DNA of 64,000 bases from NCBI GenBank assembly GCA_963989385.1, contig OZ022508.1, positions 51,747,087-51,811,086 on the forward strand, given 5' to 3'. Of the stretch, positions 6,790 to 48,266 are shown piece by piece. The translations under genes and the position numbers were made by a program. The number at the start of each line of letters is the position of its first letter. The stretch's first letter is position 1. Source of the DNA: Ctena decussata. Its lineage: Eukaryota > Mollusca > Bivalvia > Lucinida > Lucinidae. The notes under the pieces were generated by a model, which saw only the letters and a list, made by a program, of their open reading frames with translations, was not told where the DNA came from and searched no databases.

Positions 6790-6925
6790 GGATATCGGCA
6801 CGACCATCGTGCCGATAAGAATCCTTATTGGCAAGACGGTCGTGCGGATAAGAATCTTTATCGGCAAGACGGTCGTGCGGATAAGAATCCTTATTCGCAC
6901 GACGGCGATCAGATACTACATTACA
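6790..6925 (+). repeat. Palindromic minisatellite (gacggtcgtgcggataagaatc unit)
   Basis: Three to four units of about 33-36 bp containing GGCAAGACGGTCGTGCGG and the inverted core GATAAGAATCCTTATC. The array and its right flank (gacggcgatcagata) reappear in reverse orientation at 14862-14955, and one partial unit lies at 22153-22175. Confidence 0.85.
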
Positions 6926-12489: not shown

Positions 12490-14757
12490 GGAAGAATTCC
12501 CAGATGCCTTTGGCTTACCAGGTAAAGACCAATCTGCCTTCCTTGGAGGTACCAGGGCCCTTACGTCCCCGACAGCACAGCTCCCACCATGGTAAGTAAC
12601 TCAGCATCTGGGCCCCTACATATTGCTTAGAATGAAAGGGTGGACAGCCCCTCTTTGAAGGATACCAAAGAAGGGGCCTCAGCTATAGCAGCTGGAAGAG
12701 AGTTCCACAAAGGTACTGTCCGGGGAAAAAACTGTATTTAAAGCTGTCTGTAGAAGATGAGAACTGCCTGTACTTCCTTGTATGTGCTGATCTGGTTCTT
12801 GCTGTCGATGGTGTCAAGTACTCTGCGGCTGGGATGTCAACTTGGCCTTGGACCACTTTATAGAAGAGGGTTAGCTGTATTTTACACCTCCTTGACTGTA
12901 GTGACTCCCACTGCAGGTGGTGGAGCATAGATGATACACTGCTAGTATTCCTATAGCGGTTGATGGTAAAAAAAGTAAAAAGTATGCAAAGACCAGGAAC
13001 TGAAACAATCAAAATCCAAATCCAGCCCTCAAACCATAGTTGGAAACAACTAAGATTACAAATAATCAAGATACAGAGAACATATGGCCAACCGAGTGAG
13101 CAGCTTGTTCCCAAAAGGTGGCCACTCAGCAACCCAAACCGAACCAAAAATAATAATAACATACATAAGGTAAAACATCACAGAAACTCTGACACCAAAA
13201 ACAGGCAACAAAGAACCACAACAGAACTACCGCCTTGGAACGGTCAGTAATGAATTACTGGGGGGCTTAAATCGATTTTACAGGCCCAACCTCACCCTCA
13301 GTTTCTGAAGTGGTACAAAACATTTAGTTGGTTGTTCGTAAACCTAGCAGCTCTTCTCTGTACCATCTCTACTTTATTAACTTGATCCTTGTGATAGGGA
13401 TTCCATACTGACGAGCAATATTCCAGGTTAGATCTGACCATGGTAAAATAAGCGTTGGTTTTGGTATCCTCATTGCAAGATTTCAGATTGCGACACAAGA
13501 ACCCCAGCATACTGTTGGCTTTCTTCGTGATCCTGTCGATGTGATTTTTCCAGGACAATGAGGACTGCAAGTCAACACCCAGATACTTTGTGCTGTCTTG
13601 GAGCTCCAGGATGTGACCTTTCAGTCGATAGGGGTATCTAGTAGGGCTGCGTGATCTTGTTATACTCAGGACGCTGCACTTCTGAGGATGGAACTCCATA
13701 CCCCACTTGGTCTCCCACTCAGCCAACAAGTTAAGGTCTTCTTGTAGTGCTACACAATCTCACTGGTCTTTGATTTGCCTATACACAATGCAGTCATCGG
13801 CAAAGAGTCTTGTCTTTGAGGCAATCTTATCCGGGAGGTCGTTTATAAAGAGGAGGAAAAGCAGAGGTCCCAAGACTGACCCACTGATGACAGGCACACC
13901 ATCAGACGAACTTCCTTCAACAACCACACGCTGTGAACGGTCAGACAGGAAAGACGCAATCCAACTGTGAGTGCTCCCTCTAATGCCATAATGTATAAGC
14001 TTCCTTAGAAGGCGTTGATGAGGCACGCGATCGAATGCTTTGGAGAAGTCGAGAACTACCATGTCTGTTTGGACTCCCTTGTCCAGCGAGGAGGTCAAGT
14101 CGTGGCAGAGAGTTACTAGTTGGGTCTCACAACTTCTTCTAGCACGGAAGCCGTGTTGGCAGTCTGAGAGGATTCTATGGTGGTCCACATGTTTCATTAC
14201 ACTGCTGACTATGACATGTTCCAAAATCTTGCCGCAAAGGCAGGTCAGAGAAACTGGGCGATAATTCGCGGGGTCATAATGCTGTCCTTTGTTGAACACT
14301 GCAGAAACATTGGCGGTTTTCCAGTCGTCTGGGACAGTTCCTGTCTGTAAAGACTTATTGAAGACGATGGTTAATAATGGTGCCAACTCTTCAGAGCATT
14401 CCTTTAGCAATCTTGCTGGAATCATATCAGGGCAAGTGGCTTTGCGTGGATTACTTCTTTGAAGCAGTTTCCTCACGCCGTCTTCTGTAACCGTGATGCT
14501 ATTCATATCTGGGTATGGGTCACCATCTGGGTCTGGAACTGGGATGTTGGGCTCTTCGTGAGTAAAGACAGACTGGTACTGTCTGTTAAGAATATCTGCC
14601 TTGTCTTTGGGAGTATTAAAAAGACGGCCATTATCCTTTAATGGTGCTACACCTGTCGAATCTTTACGAAGAGACTTTATGTAGTTCCAGAATCTTTTCT
14701 GTTTTGGTGGTTGAATGCCATCCGGGTCTTCAATGATTCCATTGATATGACTAGACT
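12490..14757 (-). mobile_element. CR1/Jockey-type LINE ORF2, 3' two-thirds, nearly intact
   Basis: Minus-strand coding runs from about 14757 (PKQKRFWNYIKSLRKDSTG) through the RT (14506-13760): PDDWKTANVSAVF, NYRPVSLTCLCGKILEHVI, motif A VVLDFSKAFDRV, motif B SGSVLGPLLFLLFINDLP and motif C TRLFADDCIVY. A single TGA near 13758 interrupts it, then 13729-13298 continues (STKYLGVDLQSSLSWKNH; MVRSNLEYCSSVWNP). A 0.37-kb insertion (12962-13328) splits the C-terminal part, which resumes as SSMLHHLQWESLQSRR and ends at a stop near 12627. The endonuclease half is absent (5' truncated). It was the most intact LINE of its family here but is inactive now. Confidence 0.9.
12962..13328. mobile_element. Insertion inside the LINE, about 367 bp, unknown family
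   Basis: The LINE protein reads ...RRAARFTNNQ on one side and YRNTSSVSSMLHHLQ on the other, so this segment is foreign. GGTTG occurs at both edges and may be a target duplication. The interior has no recognisable domain; it is A-rich on the plus strand and contains (aat)n. Confidence 0.6.
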
Positions 14758-14861: not shown

Positions 14862-14955
14862 AGAATATCTGACCGCCGTCGTGCGGATAAGGATTCTTAT
14901 CCGCACGACCGTCTTGACGATAAGAATTCTTATCGGCGCGACCGTCTTGCCGATA
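14862..14955 (-). repeat. Palindromic minisatellite, reverse copy of 6790-6925
   Basis: Contains a perfect inverted repeat: GTCGTGCGGATAAG (14878-14891), GATT, then the exact complement (14896-14909). A second unit (gataagaattcttatc) follows. It abuts the 3' tail of the intact LINE. Confidence 0.85.
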
Positions 14956-15353
14956 ATACAATACAATACAATACAATGTTTATTTCTCCAATTAAGGACC
15001 CTTTCGGGTAAACAAGCAATCATATAAAAAACATTTAGAAGATGATTTGGTGATTGGAAAAAGATTAATAATAATAATAATGTTTCAACAACTTTACACA
15101 TATAAATATATATACATACATATGAATTCATTATATGTATCTATATACATATATATGCATACACAAATACATACACAGCTATGTATACCACACGTCCATA
15201 TAAGCGGGCAAACGGGCATATGAACTAAATGCATACATACAAAGACAATATACGATGTCAGGTAATATGTATCAGAATGTCGGAAGACCGGATTCCCAGC
15301 ATTGTGAACCTTACATCTTACTATGATTTTACACAATCTCATAAGTCTGGGTA

Positions 15354-18300
15354 TTATAAGAATTTTCTTCTTTTAGAAAAACAGGTATCTACATACTGTG
15401 CAAAAACCCTTAAAATATTATTATCTTCCTGTATTAATAACCATATCGCTTTATCATTTAGGCTTAAATTACGAAAACCTTCATTGTTTAAAATTACATT
15501 CTTGAACAAATTTTCTCTTTCTTTTTCAAATAATTTACATTTCAATATAAAATGGAATTCATCCTCGATTTCATTTAAATTACATTTTGTACATATTCTA
15601 TCAGATCTCATCAATTTATGCTTGGCATAACGTCCAGATTCTATTCGTAAATCATGTGCGCTTATTCTTAATCGACACATAGATTTTCGCAAATTAAAAC
15701 TTTCTAGCGACAAGTACTTTTCCATTGTAAAATTTTGTTTAATGCTGAAGTAAGTTTCTAGTTTACCAGAGGTGATTGATTTATTCCTTTCATTATTCCA
15801 ATATAGTTTAAACTGTTTGACTAGTCTTGTACTTACCATACGTACTAGCTGGTTTTCTGTATAATAACCACATCGATCTATATCGATACCCAAAGTTTTG
15901 AATACAAATACGACAGAACTGTACCATGTCTGTACATTACAGTTATGTAGAGTTTTAGTGAGTTTGAACGCTTCCCGTAATAATCCGTCATCACAATTTT
16001 GTAGTCTATATAGGTATTTAATCATCGATATGATAATAGAAAAATACATAGGAAACCGACCTGTTTCAGACATAACAGCAATATTTGATGAGTATTTATT
16101 GACTCCTAAAATAAATTTCAGATATTTTATTTGCGACTTATCAGCAATATTATTTTTATAAATGTTCTGAAAAATTGAATCATTATTACGATTGCAAGCT
16201 ACACTATCTGTCTTGAAGACCCCCCATATTTCTGACCCATATAAAACAATTGGTTTAATGAGGTGATCGAATAGATGCAGATTTGTTTTAACGCTAGGTT
16301 CTGACGATGAGATTAAGTTAGTTAATTTAAATGAGGCTTTTAATGATCTTTTAAATATATCTTCTTGACCATATTTAAATGATCCACTTGCCGAAAAGAA
16401 AACACCAAGATAGCGATAGTGCTGAACGCTTTCCAAAGGTTGCTGATTGAAGCAAAAGTTGTCTTTTAGCAGTCTGCCTGACTTATTAAAAACTAATATT
16501 TTTGTTTTATTAATATTTACATCAAGACACCAATCTTCACAAAATTTATGTAGAGTATCTAATCTGTTTTGTAGCCCTACACGAGAAGTAGATAAAAGAA
16601 CGATATCATCCGCATACATCAAACATTGCACATGAAAATCATTTAGAAGAACTTCGTCAGGCGTGCCTTGTAAATATTTAGGCAAATCATTTATGTACAG
16701 TTTAAATAAAGCAGGACTAAGCACATCACCCTGTCGCACTCCGATGTCTGAATGGAAAAACTCGGTATGCTTATCACCTAATTTCACACATAATTTGTTT
16801 TTTGAATACATATTAGTAATGATGTCATAAAATTTGCCCCCAATTTGATACTGTTTTAATTTAAATTTTATTCCCGGATGAATAACAGTATCGAACGCTT
16901 TCCTAAAGTCAACAAAGCATGTATAGAGACGACCACCTTTTTTATTGATATATTTATCTATCAGACTTTTAAGAACGAACATATGATCCGAAGTACGAGC
17001 ATGTTTCTTAAAACCTATTTGGCTCTCATCTATAATATTATTTTCCTCTAAATAATTATCCAATCTAACATTTAGTATCATGTTAAATAATTTACCTACA
17101 TTTGAGTTTATCGTTATACCACGATAGTTTTCCGGTTGGGTAATATCACCTGTTTTGAAGATGGGCGTGATGAATCCTGTTGCCCAAGATGAAGGATATA
17201 TACCGGATGTAAATACTAAATTAAATAACTTATAAAGACATGGGAGAAGAGTAAATTGTCCACTTTTTAACATTTCATTTTTTATGTTATCAAGACCTGA
17301 CGACTTACAATTCTTTAGTTTAGAAATCGAATTTGAAATCTCTGAATGCTTTATTATAGCATCAAGAAGGTTAAAAGTTGAGCTTCCATCTTCTTTCAGT
17401 ATTTTTTCGAGATCGTTTATCCTAGCTTTGAATTTATCTGGAACTGCATTTAAGTTTTGAAAATAACCTGACCAAGAATCAGAGTCAATAGAAAGTTCAG
17501 GGCCATTGTTTTGGTCGCGATCTTCCTTTAGTGAGTTGACAAGGTTCCAGTATTGCTTGGGATCCTTATTTTCTAAAGCATCAAGTTGTTGGACAATTTT
17601 ATTTTTGAAATTTTTCTTTTTGAATTTTACTAGTTTGCGGTATTCACGATAATGTTTAAAGTACGTATTTCTTATAAGTTGGTTGAATGGTTGACTGAAC
17701 ATTTTCCGTGCTATAGCGGTAAGGTTTCTACGTTTGACATATAGGTCTTCGTCAAACCACTTTTTACTTTTATTCTTTTTGAATTTACTTGTTCTATTCC
17801 TACGTAAGCATAATTGTGCTGTACTTACAAGTATTTCCTCAAATAAATTGGCTGCTTCGTTTACTTGCTCCACATTTGAATTAAAGTTTATATTGAGAAA
17901 TGATTCTATTTTACGTGTGATCGACGGACATACTAGGGCTTTTTTGTACATTTCTAGTGAGCATTTTTTCCGTTGGAATGTAAGTGGCATATCTTCTGTC
18001 AAATTTGTAGATGTTCTGTTTATGTAACTGGCCTTCAAATTAAATGATATTTTGCTATGACAATCAGAATACATAGGCTTAAACGGGTGAACATGGAAAT
18101 ACATAATTTCTTTAATCAACTCTTCTGATAAAATTACGTAATCTACTACGCTTGCCCCAGTGGGTTTTTGACAAGTGAATTTTCCATAAGTATCGCCCGT
18201 ACTCCTACCATTTAATATTCTTAAGCTTCCCGATATACATAGGTCAAGTAGTTGTTTCCCCCTTTCATCAACTTTAGTATCCTCACTCTTTCTCTGATTT

Positions 18301-18875
18301 ATATTTGTATCAATTATATACGACGTGTCTAATGGCAGATGTCTATCATCGTCTTTCTGGATATAATCTAATTCACGTCCGGTCCTTGCGTTCAAATCAC
18401 CACATAGTAATATTCTACCTATATTCTTATATGTATTAATGTCCCTTATAATAGCATCCAGGGTGTCCTCGTTTGACTGTTGTAAAAATGTACAAGGAGT
18501 CATGTATGAAAAGCAAATAAATATATCACTATCAAGATGGAAAAACTCTTTTGAAAGAGACAACCATTGAAATTCCGAACTTCTATTTGGAAGAATCTTG
18601 ATACCCTTTCTAATCGTGTTGCGTATTAAAATGGCTAAACCGCCGTAATAGCGACCGTTTTTCGATATGGATCTACAAACTGGAATATATTGGAATCCTT
18701 CTATATAGACAGTACTATTGTAACCTATATGCGTTTCACTCAGAAACACAAGATCATACGGCTTGATTTCCTGAATGAAATTTTCATCTTTGAGCTTATT
18801 GTAAGTTTTCGATACGAGACCTCCGACATTCCAAGAACATATTGAAATAAATGATGATCTCTTACCAACTGTCAT
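15354..18875 (-). CDS. LINE ORF2: APE endonuclease and reverse transcriptase
   Basis: 1173 residues, intact. The N-terminal apurinic-like endonuclease shows CSWNVGG (N16), FLSETHIG (E47), LLCGDLNARTG (about 155-165), ASVVDYVILSEE (about 240) and SDCHSKIS (about 270). The RT follows: FITPIFKTGDI and NYRGITINSNVGKLF (about 560-590), motif A CFVDFRKAFDTVIH (about 650), motif B GVRQGDVLSPALFKLYINDL (about 712) and motif C LMYADDIVLLS (about 754). A C-terminal zinc knuckle, CTKCNLNEIEDEFHFILKC, lies near residue 1092. It would nick target DNA and prime cDNA synthesis on the element's RNA. ORF2 contains no RNase H; that activity is apparently carried by ORF1. Clade undetermined: CR1/L2/Jockey group. 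Confidence 0.95.
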   Translation of the reverse strand: MTVGKRSSFISICSWNVGGLVSKTYNKLKDENFIQEIKPYDLVFLSETHIGYNSTVYIEGFQYIPVCRSISKNGRYYGGLAILIRNTIRKGIKILPNRSSEFQWLSLSKEFFHLDSDIFICFSYMTPCTFLQQSNEDTLDAIIRDINTYKNIGRILLCGDLNARTGRELDYIQKDDDRHLPLDTSYIIDTNINQRKSEDTKVDERGKQLLDLCISGSLRILNGRSTGDTYGKFTCQKPTGASVVDYVILSEELIKEIMYFHVHPFKPMYSDCHSKISFNLKASYINRTSTNLTEDMPLTFQRKKCSLEMYKKALVCPSITRKIESFLNINFNSNVEQVNEAANLFEEILVSTAQLCLRRNRTSKFKKNKSKKWFDEDLYVKRRNLTAIARKMFSQPFNQLIRNTYFKHYREYRKLVKFKKKNFKNKIVQQLDALENKDPKQYWNLVNSLKEDRDQNNGPELSIDSDSWSGYFQNLNAVPDKFKARINDLEKILKEDGSSTFNLLDAIIKHSEISNSISKLKNCKSSGLDNIKNEMLKSGQFTLLPCLYKLFNLVFTSGIYPSSWATGFITPIFKTGDITQPENYRGITINSNVGKLFNMILNVRLDNYLEENNIIDESQIGFKKHARTSDHMFVLKSLIDKYINKKGGRLYTCFVDFRKAFDTVIHPGIKFKLKQYQIGGKFYDIITNMYSKNKLCVKLGDKHTEFFHSDIGVRQGDVLSPALFKLYINDLPKYLQGTPDEVLLNDFHVQCLMYADDIVLLSTSRVGLQNRLDTLHKFCEDWCLDVNINKTKILVFNKSGRLLKDNFCFNQQPLESVQHYRYLGVFFSASGSFKYGQEDIFKRSLKASFKLTNLISSSEPSVKTNLHLFDHLIKPIVLYGSEIWGVFKTDSVACNRNNDSIFQNIYKNNIADKSQIKYLKFILGVNKYSSNIAVMSETGRFPMYFSIIISMIKYLYRLQNCDDGLLREAFKLTKTLHNCNVQTWYSSVVFVFKTLGIDIDRCGYYTENQLVRMVSTRLVKQFKLYWNNERNKSITSGKLETYFSIKQNFTMEKYLSLESFNLRKSMCRLRISAHDLRIESGRYAKHKLMRSDRICTKCNLNEIEDEFHFILKCKLFEKERENLFKNVILNNEGFRNLSLNDKAIWLLIQEDNNILRVFAQYVDTCFSKRRKFL

Positions 18876-19409
18876 TATTACAGTATTATGAAGTATGGTT
18901 AGCAGCTATTGCGATGAGACAACAAAATAACTATTTTCGGTACAACATACATGTATAAAACTTATAGACCTGTACTAGTTTGACATTAGTGCCGCTATAT
19001 GGTGAAAAAAGATACGGCAATAAAGTAAGCGGCCACTAATAATTATAATCATGACAGAATTAATGTTGTGTATATGTTGTGTTAAATAACATTTTCACCT
19101 TTTAAAAGTATCTAGTTTAACTATACACGTTCCACTTGTGATCAACTAGTTGTATAGAGCCGCCCATCTGCATTGGTAGTTTCTTTCATTTATATTTTTA
19201 CAGTTTCAATATACCACAGGTGACCAAAATTCAATGAGAGAGAGAGAAAAAAAAAAGGGAATAAAACATGTATATATAACGAAATGAAAGATAAGTGTAT
19301 ATCCATTACTTCGTCACATATCTCGTCAAATTTCCAGATATCACCCTCATTGAATCCTAGGTTCCCGTGAGTATACGAATATAGCGTTAAAACTCGACAG
19401 TATATAAAA

Positions 19410-21860
19410 TTAGCGCCATCTTTGACCATAGTCCCGTCTTTGGCTAAATCTGTCGGCCCGGCGCCAGGAATAATCGTTGCTTCTCCCATTTTGTTGACGA
19501 TGTTCGTATCTTACACGCTGAGCATCCGAGTAATTATTAAATGTTCCTCTTTCGTTGTGAAAGCGATTTTTTGTACTCCTATTGTTCCGACTGATCGATA
19601 GGACCTGAGGTAAATCAAGGAGGTCCCAAAGAGCGTTTTTCAGATTTTTCCCGAGTTTCTTGGTGCCATTATTTGACAGATGAAGTCCGTCTCGGCTTAG
19701 AATGCCGTGTTGAGCCTCACCTCTATAAAACAGGTTAGCGTTGTCGCAGAGATAGATGTTACTTTTGTTGCTAAGCGACTCTTTTATCAGCACATTTGTT
19801 TTCTCTATTTTTCTGTTTAGGGCTATATCAGACCTGGGAAGCCCTAAGGACACCAATATCTTTATGTCCTTGAACTTCTGAGCAATATGGTCAACAGTCT
19901 CAGAAATAACCTGCGTACATGTTTCCGGGCTTTTATCCTGTATCTCGTTACAGAGTGAGTGGAGAACTAAAACGTCTGGCGAATCGGCATCTGTCATTGA
20001 ATCTATATAATCCCTGGTTTCGTCTATTGTATATTTTAAAATCTTTGACACCTGGAGCTCATTCTCCCCTAGATATGCAGAGCTTAGATATTTTGTGTTT
20101 GAAGTTCCAACTATTTGAACGTTCTTTTTATAAGTTTTTTCCGCTGATTCCGCGCCCTGGTTGTTTCTGTTCTCATTCAGCTGACTTAACTGCCTTTTAC
20201 CTGCCCTAACGTCTGTTGATTTCTTGGACTCTAATGACTCTAATGTATGTTTATTATGCGGCTGACTAACATCATCAGAAAACGACAAGCTGTTATCGAG
20301 ATTGATAACCTCTCCATCATTGTGAGTATCTGAAGTGTTCAATTTATCTGTAATATTTGAATCATTTTTCCGCTTCTTGGAGACCTCTTGAAATGGCTCA
20401 CAGCTGCTATAACCTTGACATTTAGTTTCAATAATGGTGTCCTGGAGTTCCGATATCTTTAAGGTCAGTTTACTGATGTTTTCTTCAAGGTTTAAAATAA
20501 GCTGATTTTTTACATCTAATCTCTTCTCCATGGTCAGATTGTCAGCTTCTTGAATAGAAAGCATTTTGGTTAAGGACTCTCCCTTTTGACGCAGTAAATT
20601 CATTTCCGCATTGAGTCTTGACTCTTTTACTTCTTTTTCTAGTCTGAGGTTGTGTAAGTTGTGCTGACCCTTCTCTTTTTCCATCTCATGTTCTTTCTGT
20701 AGAGATGATATCTTTCTTGAGAGTTTATCACATTCTTTACAAGATTTTTCTTCGTATGATGGGATGTTTGTATAGTTGTTTCTCTCTAACTTTAGTCTTT
20801 CATTTTCTTCAGATAACTTCCGGATTTGTTGTTTTAAGGTGTCTACCTCGGGTTGTGTAGAGTTAACCTCCCTGATTGAGCTGTTAATCTTGTCAAAAGA
20901 GGAAACGAAGGACTCTTGAAGAAAGTCGACTGTAGATTTTTTAAACACCTCAAGCTCCTCTGTAATGGTGAAATTTGGGTTATCTGTAGCAGTTTCCATG
21001 GTCCTGATTATTTCTGTCTGTGTTTCTTTGTTCGATGTACCCTCGCTGCTGTGGTTAATATTGAAACCCAGGTTATTAGTTGATATATCTGCATCATAAT
21101 CCTGTAAATAATCTTGTTTTACTTGAAAGTCGTCTTCTATCTCTGTGCAAATCTCGCATGTAAACCTCCGTTGAGTATTTTCATACAGATATAGCTGATA
21201 GGTCGGCAACTGAGTGCACTCATAATGTATCCACCCTCTACAATCCTGACACTGAATGGCCTGGTCTGTGTCTGTACATTTAACGAGACATTTCTTGCAA
21301 ACATAATCTGAAGATGTAGGCATATCTGTTTGTTGTTCTGCAATACAAGCACTTGAATCAATTGAGAATATAAATTTACTATAATCTTGCCATTCCCCTC
21401 TTTCGCATAGAATGCCACTCTTAGCTAGATCGTCTGCGCGTAAATTTCCGTCCTCTGTGCTATGGCCTTCCACCCATTTCCATTCAACATCTAACTTCGT
21501 CCTGATATGGTCTAGTAACACCCATAAATCTTTATTTTGCACATCTTTTTTCTTCGCTGCCTTCCCCGCTGTCTTCCATTCATTCATTTTCCACTCGTTA
21601 ATCCATTTGGTGATTCCATCTTTCACATATCTGCTGTCGGTGATTATCTGCACCGATCTCAGTTCCAGCCTTACTGCTTGGGAAATACCAATTATCGCTG
21701 CTGACAGTTCGGCACGATTGTTAGTTTGTTTTTCGCCTTGCAATTTTTCCGCCCAGTTCATCGGATGGTATGGGCCCCAGTAAACTCCGCACCCGCCTTG
21801 TGGGTTATTATGCCCATTGTTTCGGCATGCTCCGTCGACATAGATGTCTACTTTATCCAT
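19410..21860 (-). CDS. LINE ORF1: RNase H, PHD finger, coiled coil, SGNH esterase
   Basis: 816 residues, intact. Residues 1-150 form a type-1 RNase H fold with all acidic residues visible: IYVDGACRNNG (D9), NNRAELSA (E51), IITDSRYV (D75), VEGHS (H133) and GNLRADDLA (D143). Residues 188-238 fit a C4HC3 PHD finger (C188, C191, C204, C207, H212, C215, C235, C238). A long charged coiled coil spans about 330-480. A diverged SGNH hydrolase follows (VQIVGTSNTKYL near 582, SLCNEI, DGLHLSNNG near 727), then an Arg/Asn-rich basic tail that probably binds nucleic acid. PHD plus esterase is known in CR1-like ORF1 proteins. An RNase H at the N-terminus of ORF1 is not something I know of. It is transcribed before ORF2. 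Confidence 0.9.
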   Translation of the reverse strand: MDKVDIYVDGACRNNGHNNPQGGCGVYWGPYHPMNWAEKLQGEKQTNNRAELSAAIIGISQAVRLELRSVQIITDSRYVKDGITKWINEWKMNEWKTAGKAAKKKDVQNKDLWVLLDHIRTKLDVEWKWVEGHSTEDGNLRADDLAKSGILCERGEWQDYSKFIFSIDSSACIAEQQTDMPTSSDYVCKKCLVKCTDTDQAIQCQDCRGWIHYECTQLPTYQLYLYENTQRRFTCEICTEIEDDFQVKQDYLQDYDADISTNNLGFNINHSSEGTSNKETQTEIIRTMETATDNPNFTITEELEVFKKSTVDFLQESFVSSFDKINSSIREVNSTQPEVDTLKQQIRKLSEENERLKLERNNYTNIPSYEEKSCKECDKLSRKISSLQKEHEMEKEKGQHNLHNLRLEKEVKESRLNAEMNLLRQKGESLTKMLSIQEADNLTMEKRLDVKNQLILNLEENISKLTLKISELQDTIIETKCQGYSSCEPFQEVSKKRKNDSNITDKLNTSDTHNDGEVINLDNSLSFSDDVSQPHNKHTLESLESKKSTDVRAGKRQLSQLNENRNNQGAESAEKTYKKNVQIVGTSNTKYLSSAYLGENELQVSKILKYTIDETRDYIDSMTDADSPDVLVLHSLCNEIQDKSPETCTQVISETVDHIAQKFKDIKILVSLGLPRSDIALNRKIEKTNVLIKESLSNKSNIYLCDNANLFYRGEAQHGILSRDGLHLSNNGTKKLGKNLKNALWDLLDLPQVLSISRNNRSTKNRFHNERGTFNNYSDAQRVRYEHRQQNGRSNDYSWRRADRFSQRRDYGQRWR

Positions 21861-22120
21861 TATTTATAGATTAAATATGTTATTATTAAAAATAACTCAC
21901 TGTCTTGTAGAATTTTCTTGTTTGAGACTTGTAGATCTGTCACAGGCGTCCTTAGTAACGAGCATCGCACAAAAAACACAGCTATTTCTCCACAAATTAC
22001 CTTGGATTTTCAATGAGAATAAATATCCGCCCTTGTACCTTGAAGCGGCTACTTTAATTGTCCTCGCAACAACTGATAAACATATTTATTCAATTATTTT
22101 TCCAGCTGATTTTGAAACTT

Positions 22121-22147
22121 CCGCCATCATTGTTTACCGTGACGTCA
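22121..22147. promoter_or_regulatory. Possible promoter motifs between LINE ORF1 and tectonic exon 1
   Basis: CCGCCATC (YY1-like) at 22121-22128 and a perfect CRE, TGACGTCA, at 22140-22147 lie between the divergent LINE ORF1 and the tectonic start codon. Either unit could use them. Function is inferred from motif matches only. Confidence 0.4.
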
Positions 22148-22227
22148 TCACTCCGCAAGACGGTCGTGCCGATAGTCACCCCCCCTTTTCGAAATCCGAG
22201 GTCGTCCAAACACGTTTGTTTACAACA

Positions 22228-22486
22228 ATGGCTGTCCGATCGAATTTTTGCGTGAAACTACTCACAAACAGGGCAGTTATTGGTTTGACATTTTTTAAGG
22301 CGGCGATTTTTCTTTTATGTTACGCTAACATTGCAGAAGCAGCAACTACACAGCCGCCTGCTACTACTCTACCAAATACTACGGCAGGTGACACCACGGC
22401 ACAAGCCCAAACAACTGCCCCAGACTTGCCGCCAACAGAACCGCCAATTGTACCGAACCAAGATAGGACAACGATAGGGGAAACAG
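22228..22486 (+). CDS. TCTN: Tectonic (TCTN) exon 1: signal peptide and Thr/Pro-rich linker
   Basis: The ATG at 22228 (acaacaATGG context) opens 86 codons. A hydrophobic signal peptide (AVIGLTFFKAAIFLLCYANI, cleavage probably after AEA) is followed by a Thr/Pro-rich segment (ATTQPPATTLPNTTAGDT...). The exon ends ACA-G before gttaaa, phase 1, which joins exon 2 in frame. Known tectonics have a signal peptide followed by a low-complexity linker before the Cys-rich region, so the layout fits. The donor (G|gttaaa) is weak but usable. The identity rests mainly on exon 2. Confidence 0.75.
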
Positions 22487-22554
22487 GTTAAATCTAGTTT
22501 ATTATATTGTCTCTATCACGGTAGCTGAAACTGGGAGTGTTTTATTATGCACAA

Positions 22555-24078
22555 GGAAGTGTCTCCGGGTACGGTACCGTATCCCTAGACCCTGGGTCTC
22601 CAGGTACGGAACCGTACCCCGAGACTCTGGGTCTCCAGGTACGGAACCGTACCTGGAGACAGTCCTATGAGGACTGGCTCCGGGTACGGCAGTAAGTTTT
22701 CAAAACTATGTATTTAGTTGTTTTACCCATTTAATATATAGTTAATTCAGCAATAAAATTACTCCTTGTAAAAATTTTATTAAGTCGCCATCTTACTAGG
22801 GAAAATTATAACGTTCAAGTCAGTCATTTGCGTTATTTTGAGTGACGTACATGTACATAAACTGCGAAAAACACGACGAGGTGTCTTATTTGATCACCCG
22901 CTAATTGCTCGCCAAAAATGACTTCTGAAGAAGCCAACAACTATCATCATGTTAAAACATGTACAAATACACAATTACAGTTATTAATAAGTATCCATCT
23001 TTTTTTTATAATTCTGCGATAAGTAATGCAGACCAAAAACAGACGCCTACAAAACGCAAGCAGGGTTCTTGAATACGCCTTTCGTCAAACGGTTTAAACA
23101 CATTAAGTCATGTGCGCCAAGTTAAGTTCTCCAAGTGTTGTTGCACATCTCAATCGAAATGACATTGACTATTCATTATTATATGTATTTAATTGTGTGC
23201 TTATGAAAGTAATATCACTTCAACAGATATCGCATTGGCGGAATCAGGACAACTCGGGCCAAAGACACCTCGCCCAAAAAAAATCCCGGCCCAGGATAAC
23301 CCGCCCCATTTTATTTTTTTAACTTACCACAAGTCAACTTGTTCCATATCATAAGCTTGCCAAAATTCAACTCGCATCAAATTATAAAACCACAGCCGAG
23401 ATTTATCATGAGTATCTTGCTCTTGATTTCTTTAAATGCCACTGAAAATGTACCGTCTGACTTCATGTGTATGCACTGACAAAATGAGAGTCCCTGACAC
23501 ACAACTTGAAGGGATTTACGGTAATTACAAGCGTCTTTGTAAATTTGGTTTTAGCTGCCCCGGCCACCCCATCAAAAACTAATCACTAACGTTACAGAAA
23601 GACATATAATTGATTTATTGCACCTCAGCGGAACATATCCATAACCGCAGTAGCGGGGCGCCGTTCGTCTGTCCATCGAATAAAAACTGTTACTCATTGT
23701 TGAATTTTATTATTAAATTTGAACATAACAGGTGTGAAAAACAACAATTATTGGTGTCAGCGCGAAAACGTCATGTTATTTTTATGCAAAAATAAACACA
23801 TTGTTTCGTCCACATTATCATTAATTATTTTCCCAAGCAAGATGGCGACTTAATGAAATTTTTACAAGGAGTAATTTTATTGCTGGATTAACTATATATT
23901 AAATGGGTAAAACTACTTAATACATAGTACTGAAAACTTACTGCCGTACCCGGAGCCAATCCTCATAGGACTGTCTCCAGGTACGGTTCCGTACCTGGAG
24001 ACCCAGAGTCTCGGGGTACGGTTCCGTACCTGGAGACCCAGGGTCTAGGGATACGGTACCGTACCCGGAGACACTTCC
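22555..24078. mobile_element. Mutator-like long-TIR element, 1524 bp, 9-bp TSD
   Basis: Inverted repeats of about 256 bp (22555-22810 and 23823-24078) start GGAAGTGTCTCCGGGTACGG. The arms contain tandem palindromic units (ccaggtacggaaccgtacc). TATCACAA-type flanks are exact: TATGCACAA at 22546-22554 and 24079-24087. Nine-bp duplications with long TIRs point to Mutator-like elements. The 1-kb interior has no transposase. It lies at the start of tectonic intron 1. Confidence 0.88.
23237..23312. repeat. Degenerate ctcgggcc/cccggccca short array
   Basis: Four to five loosely repeated units (aactcgggccaaagacacctcgcccaa and so on) of the same style as 2096-2192, inside the Mutator-like element. 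Confidence 0.55.
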
Positions 24079-24113
24079 TATGCACAAACTGGTTTCTGTT
24101 TCACCAGTTTCAG

Positions 24114-41008: not shown

Positions 41009-42541
41009 ATGGAAAATGACGAAGACAGATTTTTCATTCTTAATGGCCTGCGTAATGGGTTTGACATCATTGACTCAGAGGCCTGTCCAGAAGTTGTAAA
41101 GTGTGAGAATCATAAGTCAGCAAGGCCAGGCAGTCCATATTACAAGGAGGCAACAGCTCAGGTACTAAAGGAGATTGAAATGTGCAATTATAAAGTTGTT
41201 GCGGATCCACCTGACATTATCAGTCCAATGGGTGTGATCCCAAAATCGGATGGTGGTGTCAGGCTGATTCATGACTGTTCTCAGCCTGAAGGCCTTGCTG
41301 TCAATGACTACTGCACTGCTGACTGGAAACAAAAATTCTCCAGGGTTGAGGATGCTGCCAAGCTGGTTACACCAGGTTGTTTTATGGCAAAAGTTGACTT
41401 AAAGCAGGCTTATAGGTCAGTTCCAATAAGCAAACACAGCCAGAAAGTCACTGGCCTAAAATGGCAATTTCATAATCGAACGGTCTATCTCCAAGATACG
41501 AAGCTCTGTTTTGGCTCCAGGCTAGCACCTGGCATTTTCCATCGCCTCACTCAAGCAGTAAGGCGTATGCTCAAACGTCGTGGGCTTAAAGCAACTGTTG
41601 TTTACTTAGATGACTTCTTTATAAAGGCGGATACTTTTGCAGAGTGTGTTCATGCATTGAACACAGTGATTTTTCTCTTAAGAAAGCTAGGTTTTCAAAT
41701 CAACTGGAACAAAGTGGTCGACACTACCACAAAACTCACCTTTCTTGGGATAGAAATTGACTCCACGGAAATGTGTTTGAGGCTACCTGAAGAAAAGCTC
41801 TTTCAGGTTAGGCAAGAATTAACTTTATTTGTTGCCCGAAGGCGGGCCTCAAAAAAGCAACTTCAGTCCCTTGCAGGGAAACTAAACTTCTGCGCAAGCG
41901 TAGTTTATGGCGGCAGAGTATATTCGCGCCGAATCATAGATGCGCTAAATAGGCTCAAGGCGGATAATCACAAAATAATGCTAACTGGCGGCATCAAGGC
42001 TGACATCGCATGGTGGCAGTCATTTATGGCAAACTTCAATGGCAAATCTATGCTCTTGGATACAGTTCCAATTAAGTCAGTTTTTACTGATAGTTGTAAC
42101 TTGGCAGCAGGTGCTTATTTTGAAGGTGACTGGCTTTACTGTAACTGGGAATGTGACTGGCCACTAGTTTCAAAGTTGCATATTAATTCGAAAGAGATTT
42201 TGGCTGTTTACCTGGCAGTCTGTCGTTGGGCACCATATTGGCGAAATAAAAAGATCTACATACAGTCAGACAATATGGTAACAGTTCATACAATAAACAG
42301 GGGCACTTCAAAAAATCCTTTTCTCATGGCGTGCCTTAGGGTTCTGTTTTGGCTTTCTGCTTCCTTTAACTTTCACATCACAGCTCGTTTTATACCAGGT
42401 TTGGTGAATACCTTGGCAGACGGAATTTCTCGACTTCATGAGCCCAGTAAGTTTGATCAGATCTTACCTTTTGTATTTCCATCCCCTTTAGACTTTCATA
42501 TGTCTCAGGCCAGTATGTGTTTTGTCTTCAATCAGGTCTAA
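41009..42541 (+). CDS. Reverse transcriptase-RNase H (Ngaro/DIRS type)
   Basis: 510 residues from its first ATG; by -1 frameshift it would extend gag from 40949. RT motifs: SPMGVIPKSDGGVRLIHDCS, motif A FMAKVDLKQAYRSVPI, motif B LCFGSRLAPGIFHRLTQ, motif C VVYLDDFFI, then KLTFLGIEID. RNase H follows: SVFTDSCNLAAGAYF, INSKEILAVYLAV, YIQSDNMVTVH, NTLADGISR. LCFGSRLAPGIF and YLDDF are characteristic of the DIRS/Ngaro lineage. No integrase, protease or recombinase follows. The ORF is uninterrupted. Confidence 0.92.
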   Translation: MENDEDRFFILNGLRNGFDIIDSEACPEVVKCENHKSARPGSPYYKEATAQVLKEIEMCNYKVVADPPDIISPMGVIPKSDGGVRLIHDCSQPEGLAVNDYCTADWKQKFSRVEDAAKLVTPGCFMAKVDLKQAYRSVPISKHSQKVTGLKWQFHNRTVYLQDTKLCFGSRLAPGIFHRLTQAVRRMLKRRGLKATVVYLDDFFIKADTFAECVHALNTVIFLLRKLGFQINWNKVVDTTTKLTFLGIEIDSTEMCLRLPEEKLFQVRQELTLFVARRRASKKQLQSLAGKLNFCASVVYGGRVYSRRIIDALNRLKADNHKIMLTGGIKADIAWWQSFMANFNGKSMLLDTVPIKSVFTDSCNLAAGAYFEGDWLYCNWECDWPLVSKLHINSKEILAVYLAVCRWAPYWRNKKIYIQSDNMVTVHTINRGTSKNPFLMACLRVLFWLSASFNFHITARFIPGLVNTLADGISRLHEPSKFDQILPFVFPSPLDFHMSQASMCFVFNQV

Positions 42542-47657: not shown

Positions 47658-48266
47658 TCATTTGAAAGTCTTAAGTATTGACACAACGACTGCTCGTATG
47701 CTGTAAAAGTATCTGCGTTGCCCAAAGGGTTCAGTAAGATGTACGCCATCGGTATCTATTGTTGCTTTTTTGTTTACCCCCCAAAAGCCTTTATGTCTCC
47801 AGAATCGACAGCAGTTGATTTTGGATAATTCGGTTGCCAAGAGATGGTTAGCTGTGTCTACTTTACTATTAAATTTCGGAACATCCACTTTGTGTCTAGT
47901 TGGGCGTGATGGTGGAAATCTATGTAGGATCTGTAGGACGGCAACATGGTGCACATTGTAGTTGCTTAAAAGAGAGTGGATAAAATCTTTGATTTTCGAG
48001 ACGAGCCTCTCGGGAGTGCATTTAGAGTCAGCCAAATCATTTGTTCCGATTTGGAGGATCACAATGTCAGGTTCAAAATCTTGAACGTAAGAAATGCAGT
48101 CATGTTTTAGCTTTTCTACATTGGCACCGGGCGAACTTGCGTACTGCACCATAATTTCACTTGGTTTTAAATTTAAGGAGTACGAAAAAGTGTGCCTATT
48201 TGCTTTCACAAACCTTTTGAAATGGCTTATAAAACTATGGCCGAGAAGGAGAACTTTGCGCACCAT
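47658..48266 (-). CDS. SGNH/GDSL-type hydrolase ORF
   Basis: 202 residues, uninterrupted. The SGNH blocks are all visible: VLLLGHSFI (S11), SPGAN (G47), ILQIGTNDLAD (N76) and DTDGVHLTE (D173, H176). It ends FGQRRYFYSIRAVV, as in other small SGNH domains. Substrate unknown. Such hydrolase domains are reported as passengers in some Ngaro-type elements and in CR1-like ORF1 proteins. It starts about 250 bp inside A1 of the outer element, which supports its being element-encoded and not a host gene. Confidence 0.85.
   Translation of the reverse strand: MVRKVLLLGHSFISHFKRFVKANRHTFSYSLNLKPSEIMVQYASSPGANVEKLKHDCISYVQDFEPDIVILQIGTNDLADSKCTPERLVSKIKDFIHSLLSNYNVHHVAVLQILHRFPPSRPTRHKVDVPKFNSKVDTANHLLATELSKINCCRFWRHKGFWGVNKKATIDTDGVHLTEPFGQRRYFYSIRAVVVSILKTFK

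Follow-up and report, generated by a model that had tools for sequence, protein, structure and literature searches.

An RNase H of the cellular RNase H1 type at the N-terminus of a LINE ORF1 in the bivalve Ctena decussata

The element and its two ORFs

The stretch of DNA analysed here (the window, 64,000 nucleotides of the Ctena decussata contig OZ022508.1) contains a non-LTR retrotransposon of about 7.2 kb on the minus strand (14955..22148), in which ORF1 is followed by ORF2 and a pentanucleotide 3' tail. Its extent was defined by end-to-end matches to two full-length copies elsewhere in the genome (L012 and L013), which are 98.5–98.6% identical to it from one end to the other. The flanking DNA of the three insertions is unrelated, while their 5' end is common to all three and their 3' end to within a base. 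The short 5' UTR (21861..22148, minus strand) has the same first bases, ATGACGTCACGGTAAA, in each insertion, and the 3' terminus is made of an (ATTGT)n tail (14955..14977, minus strand). Hence, the element is a LINE, with dispersed copies sharing a 3' end and a short-repeat tail, and with an ORF2 that combines an APE-type endonuclease and a LINE-type reverse transcriptase (RT). No clear target-site duplication was seen in 12 copies compared, for which several ends are approximate and the true 5' ends of two copies (subfamily D, below) lie beyond the data. In the window, TATCGGCA is found at both sides of the element, within a palindromic repeat, 26 bases from the 5' end. The palindromic-repeat motif AAGACGGTCGTGC (at most 1 mismatch) occurs at 6833-6878, 14903-14948 and 22157-22169, and two of these three occurrences flank the element.

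ORF1 (19410..21860, minus strand, as are all its domains) encodes 816 residues in a single open frame from an ATG. The order of domains is RNase H, PHD-type finger, coiled coil, SGNH esterase and Arg-rich tail. The RNase H domain (residues 3-150; 21411..21854) carries D9, E51, D75, H133 and D143. Thus, the original prediction of an RNase H with a complete active site at the ORF1 N-terminus is borne out by the fold and by D9, E51, D75 and D143, to which H133 is added. In base composition this part resembles the remainder of ORF1 in being A-rich, but it contains more G and less T. The PHD-type zinc finger (residues 186-243; 21132..21305) was recognized from its conserved C4HC3 residues; the window copy itself falls under the Pfam cut-off, and 21 of 26 aligned members match Pfam PHD at E ≤ 0.05. 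A long coiled coil (residues 299-483; 20412..20966) is modelled by AlphaFold as long helices (block pLDDT 51-89). The SGNH (GDSL-type) esterase (residues 578-750; 19611..20129) is identified by its fold, by the presence of S587, D724 and H727, and by a profile match whose best solved structure is 4c1b, the esterase of the LINE ORF1p of ZfL2-1 (E 1.5e-11). The C-terminal tail (residues 754-816; 19413..19601) is disordered (pLDDT <50), with 25% Arg over 53 residues counted. Tails with 11-35% Arg were found in 17 of 18 ORF1 members checked, acidic residues being about as frequent in the longest ones. With its coiled coil and SGNH domain, ORF1 belongs to the esterase type. The co-occurrence of PHD, coiled coil and SGNH esterase in one ORF1, also part of the prediction, is confirmed by Pfam across members, the AlphaFold model and the profile match.

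ORF2 (15354..18875, minus strand) encodes 1173 residues, with an endonuclease domain (residues 13-251; 18123..18839, minus strand; PF03372, E 1.1e-08) and an RT domain (residues 581-825; 16401..17135, minus strand; PF00078, E 1.6e-32). Its AlphaFold model (32 sequences, pLDDT 87) has full-length human LINE-1 ORF2p as best fold match (E 2.9e-36). After the RT the model is helical and, past residue 828, shows no strand of at least 3 residues; therefore, no RNase H fold is hidden behind the RT. In agreement, Pfam found only endonuclease and RT, and no RNase H, in the six ORF2s scanned (the window copy and five others of the same genome), as had been predicted. Hence the element does not belong with the LINEs that have an RNase H beside or downstream of the RT in ORF2.

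Several other features lie in the window. Just past the 5' end of the element, a 256-base inverted repeat of 96% identity (22554-22809 / 23824-24079, with about 1 kb between the arms) is, from its sequence, a putative foldback or DNA-transposon-like unit. An ORF on the opposite strand (21844-22491, plus strand) covers the 5' end of the element and encodes a hydrophobic part followed by a Thr/Pro-rich stretch; it gave no Pfam match at E ≤ 1 and perhaps represents a host gene's first exon. Immediately downstream, the element is followed by an RT fragment of a different LINE (13298-14506, minus strand), 25% identical to ORF2. By eye, we also noted an RT-like ORF (41009-42541, plus strand) and a separate ORF of 202 residues with the SGNH-like motifs LLGHS, IGTND and DGVHL (47658-48266, minus strand).

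Copies in the genome and relatives in databases

A search of the 1.66-Gb assembly with the ORF1 protein gave at least 72 matches; by hand count, 34 of these 72 span at least 50 residues of positions 1-150. Among 20 further loci of 9.8-9.9 kb each, picked from the best ORF1 matches and above all for RNase H, the RNase H is found at 19 (not at L014, where the match starts only at residues 241-245), ORF2 at 19 (not at L018) and both at 18; PHD matches are seen at 11 and the esterase at 15. Four subfamilies can be distinguished from ORF2 identity with the window copy. Subfamily A comprises the window and L011-L014 (ORF2 pieces 89-99% identical), subfamily B L015-L018 (59-61%), subfamily C L019-L022 (39-44%), and subfamily D, the most distant, L023-L030 (28-41%). 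The 3' ends of subfamilies B, C and D are short repeats other than (ATTGT)n. Both ORFs are uninterrupted in the window and at least at L015, L017, L020 and L028. Recurrence of RNase H at these 19 loci, accompanied by ORF2 at 18 of them and in all four subfamilies, together with the shared ends of L012 and L013 in unrelated flanks, upholds the prediction that the arrangement is no chance fusion, and shows that it is a real one rather than an assembly join.

Related elements without RNase H are present in the same genome. In lineage E, ORF2 is 45-46% identical to that of the window and ORF1 has the esterase at three of three loci (32-36% identical). Neither RNase H nor PHD gave a match at E ≤ 1 in the ORF1 of these three loci, of which L040 is broken and L041 begins past the start of ORF1. 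At L039 (935-3082, minus strand, a whole ORF1) and L041 (2-1888, plus strand), an N-terminal part with no Pfam match lies upstream of the esterase, where RNase H and PHD would sit. C10:79289672 is a further candidate with no RNase H match. An RT tree, as proposed at the outset, sets E apart from A+B, C and D but gives no firm branching order for these lineages. Since lineage E has an esterase ORF1 with no RNase H match, RNase H seems dispensable for such elements, and its distribution is patchy, through loss, replacement or more than one gain.

A protein database searched with ORF1 yielded 30 matches, among which P0001-P0023 are related along ORF1, several being incomplete, and P0024 and P0025 stand further off. 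Among the 26 aligned members, window included, Pfam matches at E ≤ 0.05 are RNase H in 25, PHD in 21, GDSL_2 in 7, the RNase H1 N-terminal domain in 2 and NADAR in 1. RNase H is present in 22 of the 23 closest proteins, and the exception, P0012, begins past it. In P0024 and P0025, PHD and SGNH accompany RNase H and a hybrid-binding domain; in P0024, only the conserved residues identify the PHD, and SGNH matches weakly (E 0.11). P0025 is ORF1-like; its RNase H is catalytically degenerate, and it additionally carries a NADAR domain, which, judged from its sequence, is a candidate for a further accessory capture. No confirmed relative of the window ORF1, ORF2 or PHD was found in viral contigs, and two PHD matches in genome contigs proved on inspection to be chance (15-27 residues, bacterial contigs). 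By eye, no pair of ORF1 and ORF2 matches on the same contig was seen among the matches listed (for ORF2, 120 of 387).

Conservation and origin of the ORF1 RNase H

The window RNase H has the same fold and active site as human RNase H1 (6vrd, 2qk9), with 42% identity. With this fold and the D-E-D-D active site it is a type 1 RNase H, and its sequence assigns it to the cellular RNase H1 type. When 16 full-length members, the window among them, are compared pairwise (the other 10 of the 26 aligned members, incomplete or distant, were set aside), identity averages 62.6% for RNase H, 49.5% for PHD, 44.7% for the esterase, 33.1% for the coiled coil and 15-20% for the linkers. RNase H is therefore the most constrained part of ORF1. 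All residues of the D-E-D-H-D set are retained in 23 of the 25 aligned database rows with data, window included; P0005 has no E51 and the active site of P0025 is degenerate. In the genome, the matched RNase H stretch is free of stop codons at 19 loci, and all five residues are kept at 18 of them, the exception being L022 (His to Pro). Within subfamilies A, B and C, dN/dS is underpowered, as copies are too alike, and synonymous changes in the RNase H of some pairs are few or absent.

Subfamily D differs from the others by a hybrid-binding domain upstream of RNase H. This domain was found at six of eight loci (L023, L024, L025, L027, L028 and L030), with Pfam E-values of 2.5e-13 (L028), 4.1e-12 (L024) and 2.1e-11 (L025); a part of it is visible at L029, and the sequence retrieved for L026 stops short of its position. 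At L028, the hybrid-binding domain and RNase H are part of one uninterrupted ORF1 of 1111 residues. No PHD motif was seen in the D ORF1s examined. On the other hand, the esterase is present in this subfamily, as an SGNH domain by Pfam at L023 and as matches to the window esterase at L025, L027 and L030. No credible hybrid-binding match was found in the window copy, and none at 12 loci of subfamilies A-C. Because the hybrid-binding domain is still upstream of RNase H in subfamily D, it appears that ORF1 took up a cellular RNase H1 as a whole. Either the lineage of the window would then have lost the binding domain after one capture, or two captures would have occurred. An RNase H tree of 37 rows places subfamily D together with human RNase H1 and P0156 (95/94), away from the type of the window. 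The AU test leaves a single ORF1 RNase H clade unrejected (p 0.206), for a tree from which P0160, P0030, P0025, P0027 and P0157, as long or partial rows, and fragments P0151-P0154 were excluded; in the earlier 37-row tree that included those rows, P0024 and P0025 are unplaced.

The original prediction also proposed that the RNA-removal step had moved to ORF1 from ORF2. This part finds no support: PF00075 is absent from the precomputed domains of ORF2 relatives (120 listed of 387 matches), and the RNase H is of host type. The ORF2 relatives with no RNase H, the RNase H1 type and the hybrid-binding domain in subfamily D together speak for a captured host gene over a domain relocated from ORF2. 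A broader reading, in which whole RNase H1 genes, with their hybrid-binding domain, were captured at least twice into LINE ORF1 and gave rise to a class of elements with RNA removal on the coat protein, not on the polymerase, and free of host RNase H2, is conceivable but on balance doubtful.

Possible role of an ORF1p-borne RNase H

We consider it fairly probable that a LINE lineage captured a cellular RNase H1 at the N-terminus of ORF1, and that the RNase H borne by ORF1p clears the RNA of the RNA:cDNA hybrid, freeing the element from host RNase H2. After capture, subfamily D would have retained the hybrid-binding domain and the nuclease, and the subfamily of the window the nuclease alone. 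ORF1p would multimerise via its coiled coil, bind element RNA, probably via the Arg-rich tail, and go to the target together with ORF2p; lipids may be engaged through its esterase. Nucleic-acid binding may also be contributed by the RNase H fold and, in subfamily D, by the hybrid-binding domain. During target-primed reverse transcription, ORF2p would generate an RNA:cDNA hybrid, and ORF1p RNase H, if catalytically active, would cleave its RNA and allow second-strand synthesis without host RNase H2. RNase H is not known to cleave RNA outside hybrids, so that packaged RNA should be safe before reverse transcription. LINEs without their own RNase H have been proposed to depend on cellular RNase H2 for efficient retrotransposition, RNase H1 overexpression giving a partial rescue, according to the available text of PMC6068448. 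Against the necessity of an intact RNase H stand the ruined site of P0025, the loss of E51 in P0005 and that of the active-site histidine at L022.

The captured RNase H1 could instead serve mainly as a module that binds nucleic acid (RNA, hybrid or target DNA) for an esterase-type ORF1p, with catalysis being secondary. The survival of the hybrid-binding domain in subfamily D would fit, as would P0025, which retains both parts despite its degenerate active site, and the RepBase esterase-type ORF1ps, described as having no structural RNA-binding domain (PMC3905857, available text). However, pure binding would not require the conservation of site residues seen in 23 of 25 rows and at 18 of 19 loci, the hybrid-binding domain was not found in the window or at the 12 A-C loci, and the Arg-rich tail already offers RNA binding, which makes this role an unlikely one. 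We hold it quite improbable that RNase H acts at other steps of the life cycle, on R-loops at insertion sites or on hybrids blocking the element's own transcription. Cellular RNase H1 does process and remove RNA:DNA hybrids in nucleus and mitochondria (PMC7657459, in part), and ORF1p could be recruited to chromatin by its PHD finger, as suggested for PHD ORF1s (PMC4120745, in part), but nothing in the present data points there, and LINEs lacking RNase H reportedly need the host for clearing the RNA from the RNA:cDNA hybrid (PMC6068448). Finally, for a single locus the default reading would be that a host RNase H gene became joined to one LINE copy by chance fusion, by local insertion or in the assembly. 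Here this is practically excluded by the joint occurrence of RNase H and ORF2 at 18 of the 20 further loci, spread over four subfamilies, by RNase H in 22 of 23 closest database proteins and by common element ends within unrelated flanks.

The element can be compared with several known systems. LINEs with RNase H in ORF2 include I, R1, Tad and others; they also encode a type 1 RNase H, but within the RT polyprotein, whereas that of the window is in ORF1, with none in ORF2. Cellular RNase H1 shares its N-terminal hybrid-binding domain with subfamily D; in contrast, the RNase H of the window has no such domain and is fused, within a retrotransposon, to PHD, coiled coil, esterase and Arg-rich tail. 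Esterase-type (type IV) ORF1ps such as that of ZfL2-1 are reported in CR1, L2 and RTEX elements (PMC3905857) and likewise have a coiled coil then an SGNH esterase, but the window ORF1 places RNase H and PHD ahead of the coil. Within the set of one survey, esterase ORF1s were confined to vertebrate groups (PMC4120745). The PHD-bearing L2/CR1 ORF1s treated there resemble ours in a PHD near the N-terminus and in an ORF2 with APE endonuclease and RT, but in the window RNase H precedes PHD; "RNase" and "ribonuclease" have 0 occurrences in the main text of that survey. Bdelloid retroelements have also captured accessory enzymes, although these are an esterase or a DEDDy exonuclease in a separate ORF3, not an RNase H in ORF1 (PMC5408684). 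An RNase H in a LINE ORF1 is reported neither in the available text of PMC4120745, PMC3905857, PMC5408684, PMC11203168 and PMC8905726 (bivalve elements) nor in titles and abstract openings of open-access PMC articles among the matches listed, a search that stops short of Repbase and subscription papers.

A LINE family with a cellular RNase H1 in ORF1p bears both on the reported reliance of LINEs without RNase H on host RNase H2 and on the way in which RNA is held by esterase-type ORF1ps, a point that the literature treats as open (PMC3905857, in part). Elements with an ORF1 RNase H should be able to jump without host RNase H2. Within one genome, ORF1s that have the hybrid-binding domain, that have RNase H without this domain, or in which no RNase H was found form a natural series for comparing the parts. 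Overall, the element may carry its own RNA-removal step, which its better-studied relatives borrow from the host.
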